A stretch of 64,000 nt of DNA from positions 2,090,516 through 2,154,515 of the forward strand of contig NC_019954.2 in assembly GCF_000328765.2 (NCBI RefSeq). The letters are read 5' to 3'. The translations under genes and the position numbers were made by a program. This DNA is from Tepidanaerobacter acetatoxydans Re1 (lineage in GTDB: Bacteria > Bacillota > Thermosediminibacteria > Thermosediminibacterales > Tepidanaerobacteraceae). This document shows positions 5,061 to 8,576 of this stretch, piece after piece. The notes below the pieces were generated by a model, which saw nothing but the letters and a program-made list of their open reading frames with translations, did not search any database and was not told the origin of the DNA. Every line of letters starts with the position of its first letter. The stretch's first letter is position 1.

Positions 5061-5172
5061 ATACAGCCGCTCATACCCAAAATTCTGCCAGTTGTACCTT
5101 TAAAAACGTCAGTTGTACCTTGTAGGCAGGAAAAATGAAAATATTGCAGAAAATATTTACGATAAGTAAATT
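5061..5172 (+). promoter_or_regulatory. LytTR-regulated promoter of the agr-like operon (three 21-bp-spaced half-sites)
   Basis: Three 10-bp half-sites lie in register: CGCTCATACC (5068), CAGTTGTACC (5089) and CAGTTGTACC (5110), each 21 bp apart. This is the geometry bound by LytTR-family regulators such as AgrA and VirR. A fixed GCAGG follows at 5126. A promoter-like TTGCAG (5144-5149), 17 bp and TAAATT (5167-5172) lie downstream. The same arrangement recurs before the signal-peptide gene at 8047-8098, so the regulator at 7312 is the likely binder. Confidence 0.7.
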
Positions 5173-5209
5173 ATTTAAGCCAGAAAGAGGAAAATCGCAG
5201 TTAGTTTAG

Positions 5210-5250
5210 AATATTTTTATAAGCAGGTAAATACTGCTTATAAAAATATT
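5210..5250 (+). promoter_or_regulatory. long AU-rich leader hairpin of the agr-like operon
   Basis: Perfect 17-bp inverted repeat (5210-5226 with 5234-5250, 7-nt loop GTAAATA) between the predicted promoter and the first gene. No T-run follows, so it is not a typical terminator. It may control mRNA stability or translation of the 5' leader; this is inferred. Confidence 0.5.
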
Positions 5251-5375
5251 TCTATGACTAGGGGATCTCCTCATCTGGTATTACTCAAACCAACAAAAAA
5301 TCTCCTTAAATCGAAAAAACGCAAAAAAACAATTGCCGGGAAGGGATGCCCTCTGAAAAGAAGGGAGTAATTTAA

Positions 5376-5849
5376 ATGTTTCCCATACCCTGGTATGTAG
5401 TGATTTTTGAATCTATACCCGAAGCCTTATTGTTACAAATCTTAACCATAAAACTCATGAACAAAAAAAAGGTTTCTTTCTGCAAGCTTCTTAAAGTATC
5501 GATGTTGTATGGTGTGGCTGCATTTTTCATTAGAAATATTGCCTTCCATTTGGGACAGCATTTTTTATTCAGCTTGCACACAATTTTGTTGATCTTAGTC
5601 TTGGCCCTGTTGTTTGATTTAATACATAAAATTAAGTTTAGTCGTAGTTTTATTCCACTATTCATCGTATCAGTGCTGTTTGGATTAATTCAATATACAT
5701 TTGTATTGATTATATTTAATTTATATAAGTTGAATATCTATACTTTTCAAGAAAGCCCTTGGCTTAATATTACTCTATTTATTCCTGTCGCTGGAATTAC
5801 GTACTCAATTGTATGCATTTACACAAAATATGCAGGTGAGATAAGGTGA
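5376..5849 (+). CDS. polytopic membrane protein upstream of the GHKL sensor kinase
   Basis: Integral membrane protein of 157 residues with about five hydrophobic segments (roughly residues 5-25, 45-62, 66-82, 91-115 and 128-150) and no catalytic motif. Its stop overlaps the kinase start (GTGA), which indicates translational coupling. The kinase itself has only two predicted membrane spans, whereas staphylococcal AgrC has a multi-span sensor fused to its kinase. The position and coupling suggest this protein supplies the missing sensor part or partners with it; that is inference. The ribosome-binding site GGGAGT lies 10 nt before the ATG. No family was recognised with confidence. Confidence 0.75.
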   Translation: MFPIPWYVVIFESIPEALLLQILTIKLMNKKKVSFCKLLKVSMLYGVAAFFIRNIAFHLGQHFLFSLHTILLILVLALLFDLIHKIKFSRSFIPLFIVSVLFGLIQYTFVLIIFNLYKLNIYTFQESPWLNITLFIPVAGITYSIVCIYTKYAGEIR

Positions 5850-6748
5850 ACAGAAAAAATCTTGTAATAATTTTTACTTTAACCTTTCAGTTAATGGTAA
5901 TTTTGATGCTGAATCAGGTGATGTTTGCAACGGATGCCCAACTATATTATAAAAGTCTGCCTTTTATAATAGTTTCTTTCATAATAATGATTTTGAGCCT
6001 TTATTTCGCATTAAAATATATTGAGTATTATTCAAAAAAAGAGGTGGAATACGAATCTGTGAATTCATATTTGAAAGAAATTGAAGAATTGCTTAATACA
6101 TTAAGAAGCGAAAGACATCAGCATTCCCAGCACATTCAAACCATACAGGCCATGATATACACAGAAGAATATGAGGAACTTAAACAATATGTCAATGGTA
6201 TAGCCGGAAATTATCGGAACACCAGCGAATTACTGCGCTTAGGAGACTTGGGGTTAACCGCTGTTTTAAATATCAAAATGGAAACCGCCAAAAGAAATAA
6301 TATAAATTTTTATGTAAAATCAAATGGAAATAAAATAAGAAACCTCAAAATGAGTTCATGGGAACTAAGCACAGTTATAGGCAATGTATTGGACAATGCG
6401 ATAGAAGCCGTTATGGAAAAAACCGGTGAGCGAAATATAAATCTTGAGCTGCAGGAGGATGAAGAAAATTACATCTTTAAGATTTCAAATAACGGCGTGA
6501 CGATTAAAGAATCTGATATGTATAAAATTTATGATGCCGGTTTTAGTACAAAACATAAAGACGCAAGAGGTTTTGGCCTTTATGTAGTAAAAAAGATAAT
6601 AGATAAATACTGCGGCAAAATCTCTTTGTCAATATATGACGGTTTAACAACCTTTACTATATATCTTCCAAAAAAGGGTGGTGAAATTGGTGCTTCGGAG
6701 TTGTTCTCAAAAGTTGTCACAGATAATAATTTCAGAACTGGGATATGA
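5846..6748 (+). CDS. GHKL-domain sensor histidine kinase, AgrC-like
   Basis: Membrane histidine kinase predicted to sense the peptide signal made by this locus and phosphorylate the LytTR regulator. The 300-residue product has two N-terminal transmembrane segments (about 7-27 and 38-57), then a helical dimerisation part with the likely phosphoacceptor H91 in the sequence ERHQHSQHI. A GHKL ATPase follows, with N-box NVLDNAIEAV near residue 178 and G-box RGFGLYVVKKI near 242. It starts with GTG overlapping the preceding stop by 4 nt, and its end overlaps agrB by about 70 nt. The catalytic half is typical of AgrC-type kinases; the short sensor region is unusual. Confidence 0.88.
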   Translation: MNRKNLVIIFTLTFQLMVILMLNQVMFATDAQLYYKSLPFIIVSFIIMILSLYFALKYIEYYSKKEVEYESVNSYLKEIEELLNTLRSERHQHSQHIQTIQAMIYTEEYEELKQYVNGIAGNYRNTSELLRLGDLGLTAVLNIKMETAKRNNINFYVKSNGNKIRNLKMSSWELSTVIGNVLDNAIEAVMEKTGERNINLELQEDEENYIFKISNNGVTIKESDMYKIYDAGFSTKHKDARGFGLYVVKKIIDKYCGKISLSIYDGLTTFTIYLPKKGGEIGASELFSKVVTDNNFRTGI

Positions 6749-7286
6749 AAAATATGACAAAGAAATATTGGAATATGGATTTGAAATTATGCTGGGTATG
6801 ACCTTTAAATTTTTTTCAATCCTTACTGTTTCTTTGGTTTTACATACCCTCCCTGAAACAATGTTAAGTCTTTTTGCCTTTGCTTCAATCAGAAATTTTG
6901 CCGGAGGTGCTCATCTTAAAACCTATGCATCATGCTATGCAACAGGTGTTTGTATGTTCGCTTTAAATGGTTTGATAATTAAATATATATCTTTTGACAC
7001 AAATCACCTTATAATTGTAAGTGATATTTTTTTCATTATAAGCCTTTTCATCACTTTAAAATGGGTACCTGCAGGAACAGAAAAAAAGGTTGTCTCGGAT
7101 TTATGCACCAGACAAAAACTTAAAGGAATCACAATAATAATATTAGGTGTATTATTTATTCTTACTCATATGTTTTACTTTATTGGCAATTACAATCTGT
7201 TAAAGGCTATTTTCTTTGGAGTATTAGAAGGAATGCTGTTTGTTACCCCGTTGGGGTATAAAATACTAAGGATTTCATATCACTGA
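6678..7286 (+). CDS. agrB: AgrB-family membrane endopeptidase (autoinducer processing)
   Basis: Membrane cysteine endopeptidase that cuts the C-terminal tail from an AgrD-type precursor and forms the cyclic peptide. The 202-residue product has the family signature RNFAGGAHLKTYASCY. Catalytic H79 and C86 are seven residues apart, matching the AgrB H77/C84 pair. About five hydrophobic segments and the N-terminal LEYGFEIML element are also visible. The exact start is uncertain because it overlaps the end of the kinase gene: GTG at 6678 or 6681, or the TTG/GTG codons just after, all follow a weak GGGTGG. It lies in an operon with kinase and regulator; the peptide gene is last and has its own promoter. 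Confidence 0.93.
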   Translation: MVKLVLRSCSQKLSQIIISELGYEKYDKEILEYGFEIMLGMTFKFFSILTVSLVLHTLPETMLSLFAFASIRNFAGGAHLKTYASCYATGVCMFALNGLIIKYISFDTNHLIIVSDIFFIISLFITLKWVPAGTEKKVVSDLCTRQKLKGITIIILGVLFILTHMFYFIGNYNLLKAIFFGVLEGMLFVTPLGYKILRISYH

Positions 7287-7311
7287 ATTTTAGAAAGGTA
7301 AGGGTTGATGC

Positions 7312-8028
7312 ATGGCAAATATACTTGTTTGTGAAGATGAAAAAAATACTTTGGCTATGATTTGCAAGCTTTTAAAGGGGAACTCTCTTGTTGAAGAAAT
7401 TTTCCCTGCATCTTGCGGAAATGAAGCAGTTGAAATCATAAAAAAACAGTCTCCTCATATCTTGCTTTTAGACATCGACTTGCCCGATATTGATGGGATT
7501 GAAGTTGCCAAAATCGCCAACACTTTCGACCCTGATACTTCCATAGTCTTTATTACGGGATATCCTGATTATGCACATGAATCTTTTATAGTTCATCCAT
7601 ATGATTACATACTAAAGCCTATCGACATTGAAAGATTCAATCAAACTATCAACAATCTCATAGTCAAACGTGAATCCAGCATGTTAGACAACAAACTAAA
7701 AATCGCTGAAATATTTCCTGTTAGAATTAAAAACAAAATACTCTTTTTAAACATAAAAGATATCATATTTATTGAAAAAAACGGCAAAGACACCACCATA
7801 CACACCAGAAAAGGCCCATTTATGTGTAATGAAAACCTTAAGGACATCGAATCTGAATTAAACAGCCATTTTTACAGAACACATAAATCTTATATCGTAA
7901 ACATCGGTATGGTTGAATGTATCGAGAGCTTAGGCGACTCATATGAAATAAGTTTTTACGGCTATGACAAAAAGGCTTATATGAGTAAAGGAAAATATCT
8001 GTTTATCAAAGACAAAATATCTGTCTAA
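7312..8028 (+). CDS. LytTR-family response regulator, AgrA-like
   Basis: DNA-binding response regulator of the peptide quorum-sensing circuit. The 238-residue product has a receiver domain (about 1-120) with acidic pocket CEDE, phosphoacceptor D54 in LLLDIDLPDIDG and the conserved Lys in YILKPID. A LytTR DNA-binding domain follows (about 135-238: IFIEKNGKDTTIHT, FYRTHKSYIVN). LytTR proteins bind direct repeats with about 21-bp periodicity, which is what is found upstream of this operon (5068-5119) and of the peptide gene (8047-8098), suggesting autoinduction. The AGGTAAGG-type ribosome-binding site is moderate, and the gene is 25 nt after agrB. Confidence 0.92.
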   Translation: MANILVCEDEKNTLAMICKLLKGNSLVEEIFPASCGNEAVEIIKKQSPHILLLDIDLPDIDGIEVAKIANTFDPDTSIVFITGYPDYAHESFIVHPYDYILKPIDIERFNQTINNLIVKRESSMLDNKLKIAEIFPVRIKNKILFLNIKDIIFIEKNGKDTTIHTRKGPFMCNENLKDIESELNSHFYRTHKSYIVNIGMVECIESLGDSYEISFYGYDKKAYMSKGKYLFIKDKISV

Positions 8029-8046
8029 TTTATAATCATATTCTGC

Positions 8047-8148
8047 CATTCATACCTAATATTCTGCCGATTACATTGCGAAAACTGCCAGTTGTGCGAG
8101 TCTAGCAGGAAATTCGTTTCTTTTGAAGAATATTACAATTGTTAGAAT
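8047..8148 (+). promoter_or_regulatory. LytTR-regulated promoter of the peptide precursor gene
   Basis: Three half-sites at exactly 21-bp spacing: CATTCATACC (8047), CGATTACATT (8068) and CAGTTGTGCG (8089). GCAGG at 8105 has the same offset as in the operon promoter. A likely -10 TAGAAT lies at 8143-8148 with a poor -35 box, as expected for an activator-dependent promoter. Confidence 0.65.
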
Positions 8149-8177: not shown

Positions 8178-8315
8178 ATGTTTAAAAGGTTTAAAACACA
8201 GATTCTCTCTTCCCTAGCATCCTTTGTAGCCGTAGTAGCTTTTTCGGGCGTTTCTGCAACGAGCATGTGGATATTTTATGAGCCTGATATTCCAAAGGCT
8301 CTAAAGGACAAATGA
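8178..8315 (+). CDS. agrD: AgrD-like cyclic lactone autoinducer precursor (Ser ring residue)
   Basis: Short ORF of 45 codons; ATG with GGGAGG 7 nt upstream, ending TGA at 8315. It has the three parts of an AgrD precursor: a basic amphipathic N-terminus (MFKRFKTQILSSLASF), a hydrophobic and small-residue middle, and an acidic, proline-containing tail YEPDIPKALKDK that matches the recognition tail of the family. The residue expected to close the five-residue ring before the tail is Ser29 (S-M-W-I-F), not Cys, predicting a lactone rather than a thiolactone, as known for Staphylococcus intermedius. It lies downstream of agrB, kinase and regulator with its own LytTR-type promoter and a strong terminator. 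Exact mature ends are inferred. Confidence 0.85.
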   Translation: MFKRFKTQILSSLASFVAVVAFSGVSATSMWIFYEPDIPKALKDK

Positions 8316-8365
8316 TAGCCCAAAGCTTAAAAGCCTTGCCAATTTACACTACTCCCTAGTTTTAA

Positions 8366-8406
8366 GGGCAAATCATACAATTGTATGATTTGCCCTCTTT
8401 TTTTAA
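8366..8406 (+). terminator. strong intrinsic terminator after the peptide gene
   Basis: Perfect 30-bp palindrome (8366-8395, arms GGGCAAATCATACAA and its complement) followed on the plus strand by TCTTTTTTTTAA. It closes the agr-like locus. Confidence 0.92.
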
Positions 8407-8576
8407 TAAATAGTTAGCTTCTAACCCGCAAAAATAGACATCAATTAAAAAACTGATTCTACTGTAAAAAGTCAGTTTTGCCGTAAAAATATCAATTCAA
8501 TGTTTTTTGTTATAGGGGTTGGCGGCCAATGGCCGTTCACCTTACCACTGATAATTAAATTAAAAAATTGAGGTTT

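Follow-up and report, generated by a model that had tools for sequence, protein, structure and literature searches.

The window, i.e. the whole stretch of 64,000 nucleotides analysed here, covers positions 2,090,516-2,154,515 of the single-contig genome (2,761,252 bases) of Tepidanaerobacter acetatoxydans Re1, a heat-loving anaerobe which belongs to the family Tepidanaerobacteraceae and has Tepidanaerobacter sp. EBM-38 as its nearest named relative (AgrA 92% identical). It contains an Agr quorum-sensing locus in which AgrB, AgrD, an AgrC-type kinase and a response regulator with a LytTR domain, AgrA, are all encoded between 5376 and 8315. Two sets of three 21-bp blocks were found there, starting at 5061 (array A, 5061-5135, ahead of the operon) and at 8040 (array B, 8040-8114, ahead of agrD), and together with the promoter elements that follow them they point to a probable self-amplifying loop.

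The agr locus

All genes and sites described lie on the plus strand. The operon begins with the gene of a 157-aa membrane protein (5376..5849), the detached sensor half of AgrC, which is fused to AgrC in relatives; it is followed, with a 4-bp overlap, by the gene of the 300-aa kinase half (5846..6748), recognised by its matches to the GHKL and SPOB_a profiles. Then come agrB (6678..7286; PF04647, E 4.4e-40) and agrA (7312..8028; LytTR, E 3e-20), whose product is the proposed binder of both arrays. The 45-aa AgrD is encoded at 8178..8315 (TIGR04223, E 2.6e-11). It contains no cysteine, and the ring residue would be Ser (SMWIF, lactone), as in several relatives of the family. An intrinsic terminator was recognised in the sequence after agrD (8365..8404), and the agrD transcript should therefore be monocistronic, with a length of about 265 nt.

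The kinase matches the staphylococcal AgrC profile from position 144 onward only. In Tepidanaerobacter sp. GT38 (locus L057) and in locus L061 the 157-aa part and the kinase form one open frame of about 450 aa, and the two proteins of the window align to the two halves of the L057 protein with 48% and 53% identity. The partial profile match and the fused frames indicate that AgrC is split in the window (5376-6748). A single-frame AgrC was also seen in several relatives besides these two, and in loci L053, L054 and L056 the membrane-half and kinase genes are not adjacent. The split, two-gene receptor is presumably functional and, judged from its sequence, the locus has every part of an Agr quorum-sensing system and forms a self-contained module, AgrC being encoded by two genes.

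Two arrays of three direct repeats

The half-sites were delimited from the sequence and an alignment of 18 arrays. In array A they lie at 5066..5077 (GCCGCTCATACC, the distal site 1, about -89), 5087..5098 (GCCAGTTGTACC, site 2, about -68) and 5108..5119 (GTCAGTTGTACC, site 3, about -47), and in array B at 8045..8056 (GCCATTCATACC), 8066..8077 (GCCGATTACATT) and 8087..8098 (GCCAGTTGTGCG). An earlier note on this DNA had placed half-sites at 5068, 5089 and 5110 and at 8047, 8068 and 8089, with identical 21-bp spacing in both sets; these coordinates are exact, each being that of the base after the G-C (or G-T) heading the half-site, index 7 of the 21-bp block. All three sites share a GCC...ACC frame and the exact 21-bp phase. 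Although the spacing is exact, the half-sites vary: the core [TC]TCATACC is peculiar to site 1, and array B has a degenerate second site. The [TC]TCA of site 1 was present in 15 of the 18 arrays, and GTT in 15 at site 2 and in 17 at site 3. The information content of the alignment amounted to 12.9 bits for site 1, 15.6 for site 2, 15.6 for site 3 and 12.6 for the GCAGGAAA element that follows. The place of a would-be fourth upstream site held 3.1 bits, near the level of the flanks, and the number of sites is thus three.

Direct repeats about two helical turns apart, here with a 21-bp period, are characteristic of LytTR operators, whose canonical form has exactly two repeats, whereas three conserved sites are present here. 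The earlier note had called three sites unusual. The arrangement is not unique, as it is found at the RcoM-1 and CoxC operators (PMC11347149) and near other AgrA homologues.

A sequence model, R1, with 75 positions was built from the 18 arrays, both window arrays included. Over the 2.76-Mb genome of the host it found two places, which are the window arrays (E 1.3e-17 and 2.4e-16; next 0.22). The genome scan for the triple pattern, which the note had set as a check, thus returned these two promoters only, and the direct three-site regulon of the host seems to be closed on the agr genes and limited to these two promoters. A matrix made from 12 arrays of other genera, collected with a window-seeded matrix and in seven cases also visible directly upstream of agr genes, gave the window arrays 54.0 and 52.7 bits and no other place in the window more than -5.8; the best of 200 column-shuffled control matrices reached 8.4 bits. 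The sequence model was used in place of a search for paired CWGTTNTRC half-sites, which was uninformative: with up to 3 mismatches allowed it gave 271 matches in the host genome, the reversed control giving 155, and no clear targets. A suspected third array at about 8453-8500, before a saccharopine-dehydrogenase-like gene (8649), has spacings of 19-20, was not seen by R1 and was rejected. A phage search with array A gave no match.

The core promoter

Beyond site 3 the DNA reads AGGAAA-N12-RNNGAAT, a sigma-H type core. In promoter A the -35 element AGGAAA (5128..5133) lies within GCAGGAAA (5126-5133) and the -10 element is GCAGAAA (5146..5152), with one mismatch to RNNGAAT; in promoter B, AGGAAA occupies 8107..8112 and GAAGAAT 8125..8131. 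The spacer between AGGA and GAAT is 17 nt in both promoters, the match being exact in B and reading GAAA for GAAT in A, and the SigH promoters described in an acetogen have AGGA and GAAT separated by 17-18 nt (PMC12456013). The GCAGG that the note had seen at the same offset in both sets is indeed there, 16 bases past the third half-site base (5126 and 8105); by this motif match it is the start of the sigma-H type -35 element and not part of the repeats.

On a yardstick of 11 positions (AGGAWW-N11..13-RNNGAAT) all 18 family arrays scored at least 10/11, a level attained by 3.6% of shuffles. Counted from the start of the array, AGGA lay at 67 or 68 bases, with one fixed offset in 17/18, and sigma-A hexamers by the same arrays were at chance (7.8 vs 7.9 in shuffles). 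Genome-wide, the exact sigma-H motif had 96 matches vs 14 for the reversed pattern. When 70 motif places were read (30 loci and 40 stretches; 72 matches), a gene was seen close downstream at many, not all, of them; the 40 stretches had been hand-picked as likely promoters, and hence the gene-start rate is not a statistic. The motif precedes spoIIAA (123.5 bits, cut-off 114.75), spo0A (386.9, cut-off 200), minC (TIGR01222, 126.2, cut-off 95.25) and noc (351.7, cut-off 315); two spoVS-like genes after the motif, named by eye, had no NCBIfam match at 1e-10. The host genome contains a SigH gene (374.7 bits, cut-off 294.8), so that both the sigma factor and its motif at known targets are present. 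A word search of open-licence PMC papers made sigma-H at agr promoters nowhere evident, which is not proof of absence.

Arrays in the family and class

The repeats are kept in close relatives with the same genes, their absence being what the note had named as evidence against it: an array stands ahead of the agr genes in all eight related loci examined, from six genomes of the family. It is present before both the operon and agrD in four loci (L051, L052, L053 and L054), before the operon in L056, and as a single array before agrD in L057 and L058, where agrD precedes the operon; L055 has a two-site form before agrD. This last locus, the third agr copy of its genome (G007), is apparently decaying, its AgrA match lacking the first 21 residues and its AgrC match being in pieces.

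Among 26 genomes of the class, R1 found arrays in 10 at E <= 0.01. Strong arrays (E < 1e-5) occurred in all seven genomes with a close AgrA orthologue vs 2 of the 19 others (G005 and G016), an association with a Fisher value of 5e-5 when relatedness is ignored. In relatives, at L057 (857-8690), L055 (15937) and L096, arrays were also observed before the genes of secreted-looking proteins, of a second AgrD family, which contains Cys, and of a small protein with sigma-70 region 4 (TIGR02937; 55.6 bits against a cut-off of 42.9).

Arrays beyond the family

Across 299 genomes of the phylum R1 had a match at E <= 0.01 in 21, mostly weak. The clearest outside the class was in G134, of a different family, where, as in the window, an AgrA homologue is flanked by two arrays, one upstream of the operon and the other past agrA, here by 178 bp. 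As each regulator may have its own half-site sequence, the non-coding DNA around 49 AgrA homologues outside the family was searched for three direct 12-nt repeats of whatever sequence. These loci comprised 39 places chosen mostly by rank and 10 earlier loci, with the exclusion of L059 (a near copy of L060), L113 (a near copy of L114), L118 (truncated) and L250 (an array without AgrA); for the count of genera L116 and L231, from the same organism, were taken as one and loci of unnamed metagenome-assembled genomes were counted singly.

At spacing 21, triples were found in 19/49 loci (12/32 genera), whereas the other spacings from 14 to 33, 19 in all, gave 0-3 loci each; with a position filter, spacing 21 was retained in 10/32 genera vs 0-2 at other spacings. 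The half-site sequence varied: L233 has CGTGAAT-CCC three times ahead of the operon, L228 has almost the same, and L241 and L245 have GCATTT-type repeats. In L246 and L247 the array lies between agrA and agrD. On the sigma-H yardstick 9/30 far arrays scored at least 10/11 vs 0/67 triples at other spacings. Three near-identical AAAGTTGTACAA repeats with 20-bp spacing were also seen upstream of the operon in another genus (L232, 1704).

Leader RNA and second agr locus

The 5' untranslated region of the operon (5159-5375) forms a long, structured leader RNA conserved in three genomes, with its core at 5174..5282; a hairpin (CCCTCTGAAAAGAAGGGAG) spans the ribosome site of the gene that opens the operon. 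Searched as a possible riboswitch, the leader matched no Rfam family, and in the 26 class genomes it had no copies outside the agr locus, being found at the same place in G002 and G006.

Two LytTR proteins were found in the host genome, the AgrA of the window and one at a divergent second agr locus, where two further agrD genes adjoin it at about 986-988 kb. Upstream of the agrD of this locus there is a 22-bp repeat (AATGTAAT...GGT), and no three-site 21-bp array was detected there (985 kb) at threshold. The locus (L340 5569-11137, about 983.6-989.1 kb) has two Cys-containing agrD copies and proteins with signal-peptide-like starts. In its vicinity are a gene resembling serine recombinases and a frame resembling transposases, both named by eye.

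Proposed mechanism and alternatives

If transcription starts 7 nt after the -10 element (about 5159 and 8138), the conserved G of the half-sites, or its counterpart, lies at -47, -68 and -89; the three sites are on the same helix face, and the third ends 8 bp before the AGGA of the -35. We propose that AgrB would export and cyclise AgrD, and that the peptide would be sensed by the two-piece AgrC (157-aa membrane half and kinase half), which would phosphorylate AgrA. Phosphorylated AgrA would fill the three same-face direct-repeat sites, at about -89, -68 and -47, and would recruit or activate sigma-H polymerase at both promoters, that of the operon yielding receptor, exporter and regulator and the second one the signal. 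Sites 2 and 3 fall where the VirR/RgaR pair is known to lie, and site 1 would be an added distal site, which should raise cooperativity. The loop would amplify signal and receptor together once sigma-H is available and, the core being of the sigma-H type, should fire in transition or stationary phase only.

An AgrA-activated, self-amplifying loop of two promoters, acting through three sites and a sigma-H core and gated by the transition phase, is in our opinion the likely explanation of the locus. The earlier note had predicted that the regulator controls its own operon and the peptide gene; the sequence supports LytTR-type direct repeats before both, and a positive feedback loop appears to be the best reading of that prediction. 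An array ahead of each transcript is no more than suggestive of peptide-dependent autoinduction. What the sequence itself shows are the genes, the arrays with their conservation and restriction to the locus, and the promoter motif with its occurrence at known sigma-H genes.

Several points weigh against this explanation. AgrA binding, occupancy of all three sites, activation and transcription by sigma-H are steps that we infer. Array B has a weak site 2, promoter A carries GCAGAAA as its -10 in place of GAAT, and the window arrays served as seed for R1 and the matrices alike. The 99% complete genome G005 (L099) has four arrays and no close AgrA orthologue was found in it, part of the contig being masked. 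In the far test the threshold (at least 24/36 pairwise matches) was set after seeing the data, with the other spacings serving as control, and 37/49 loci had no 21-bp triple under the position filter. In another genus (G038 and relatives) sigma-A-like GATATAAT motifs follow some arrays, and consequently the sigma-H core is not general. Finally, C. perfringens VirR and C. difficile RgaR close no autoinducing loop (PMC10602386).

One alternative is that sites 2 and 3 alone bind AgrA, as a dimer pair like that of VirR and AgrA, while site 1 binds another protein or is vestigial. The G residues of the RgaR pair are at -51 and -72 (PMC10602386), and sites 3 and 2, at about -47 and -68 from the start, take the place of this known pair with site 1 as an addition; the core of site 1 also differs ([TC]TCA, against GTT in sites 2 and 3). 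Nevertheless, site 1 is nearly as conserved, shares the frame and phase of the others, and in other genera the three half-sites change together (L233, nearly L228), which leaves the pair alone a modest chance of being right. A rather smaller chance is given to the core being an ordinary sigma-A promoter with a poor -35, AGGAAA then being a different conserved element. It would agree with the suboptimal sigma-A type cores of S. aureus AgrA promoters (PMC4227749), with the missing T of GAAT in promoter A and with the TATAAT-like -10s at some arrays of another genus; against it stand the sigma-A hexamers at chance level, the sigma-H motif at a fixed offset in 18/18 family arrays, and the enrichment of this motif genome-wide and before spo0A, spoIIAA and minC. 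That AgrA might be a repressor is very unlikely: although CoxC represses with three repeats at a LytTR operator (PMC11347149), that operator overlaps the -35, whereas site 3 of the window ends short of AGGA and sits where VirR-type activators bind (PMC2838878). Short degenerate repeats are frequent in AT-rich DNA, and yet chance or local duplication of sequence is virtually inconceivable as the source of arrays whose position is conserved across genera and which occur nowhere else in the genome; at the sequence level this explanation is refuted.

Beyond the single loop, we lean slightly towards the view that LytTR operators of three sites at exactly 21 bp are a general design of a broad Agr-like group in Bacillota, with half-sites varying with the regulator. 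In Tepidanaerobacteraceae, as in several other genera, this operator would be joined to a sigma-H core, so that signal production would require both cell density (through AgrA) and the transition phase (through sigma-H), as in an AND gate. If true, this view would run counter to the suggestion in print that Agr systems of clostridia are generally not autoregulatory (PMC10602386). The rule of three sites every 21 bp followed by AGGA-17-GAAT may allow the direct targets of unstudied Agr systems to be read from genomes, and would tie peptide quorum sensing to sigma-H, whose motif in the host also precedes spo0A and spoIIAA. The arrays also bear on the part played by a third LytTR site in cooperativity.

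Comparison with known systems

LytTR operators are described as 9-bp direct repeats with 10-13 bp between them (PMC11347149). The operators of RcoM-1 and CoxC resemble the arrays in having three LytTR-bound direct repeats, 8 bp long and separated by 12-13 bp, and efficient binding of CoxC needs all three (PMC11347149). CoxC was the one case returned by a literature word search of open-licence PMC papers for LytTR with three direct repeats. RcoM-1 and CoxC are, however, proteobacterial one-component CO sensors with the motif TTCNNGCA and, for CoxC, an operator over the -35 (PMC11347149); the window half-site differs from TTCNNGCA and its regulator is a two-component AgrA.

At spoIIA the response regulator Spo0A assists a sigma-H promoter. 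The window is like this case in that response-regulator sites adjoin a sigma-H core, and unlike it in that Spo0A boxes are bound by another DNA-binding domain and are not LytTR arrays.

The agr P2/P3 region of S. aureus shares with the window AgrB, AgrD, AgrC and AgrA, LytTR direct repeats before the promoter of its own operon, and positive feedback. P2 and P3 have two repeats each, their cores having 18- and 20-nt spacers (PMC4227749), whereas in the window there are three repeats and a sigma-H type core, agrD has its own promoter after agrA, and AgrC is in two genes.

The VirR consensus of C. perfringens consists of CCAGTT-type half-sites and resembles the half-sites of the window. Like the VirR and RgaR boxes, the arrays have a period of about 21 bp and a pair immediately upstream of the -35; VirR and RgaR have two boxes, compared with three sites in the window, and are described as not autoregulatory (PMC2838878, PMC10602386). 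The window locus looks like an exception to the published generalisation on clostridial Agr systems (PMC10602386), and offers the case of an apparently closed clostridial Agr loop.

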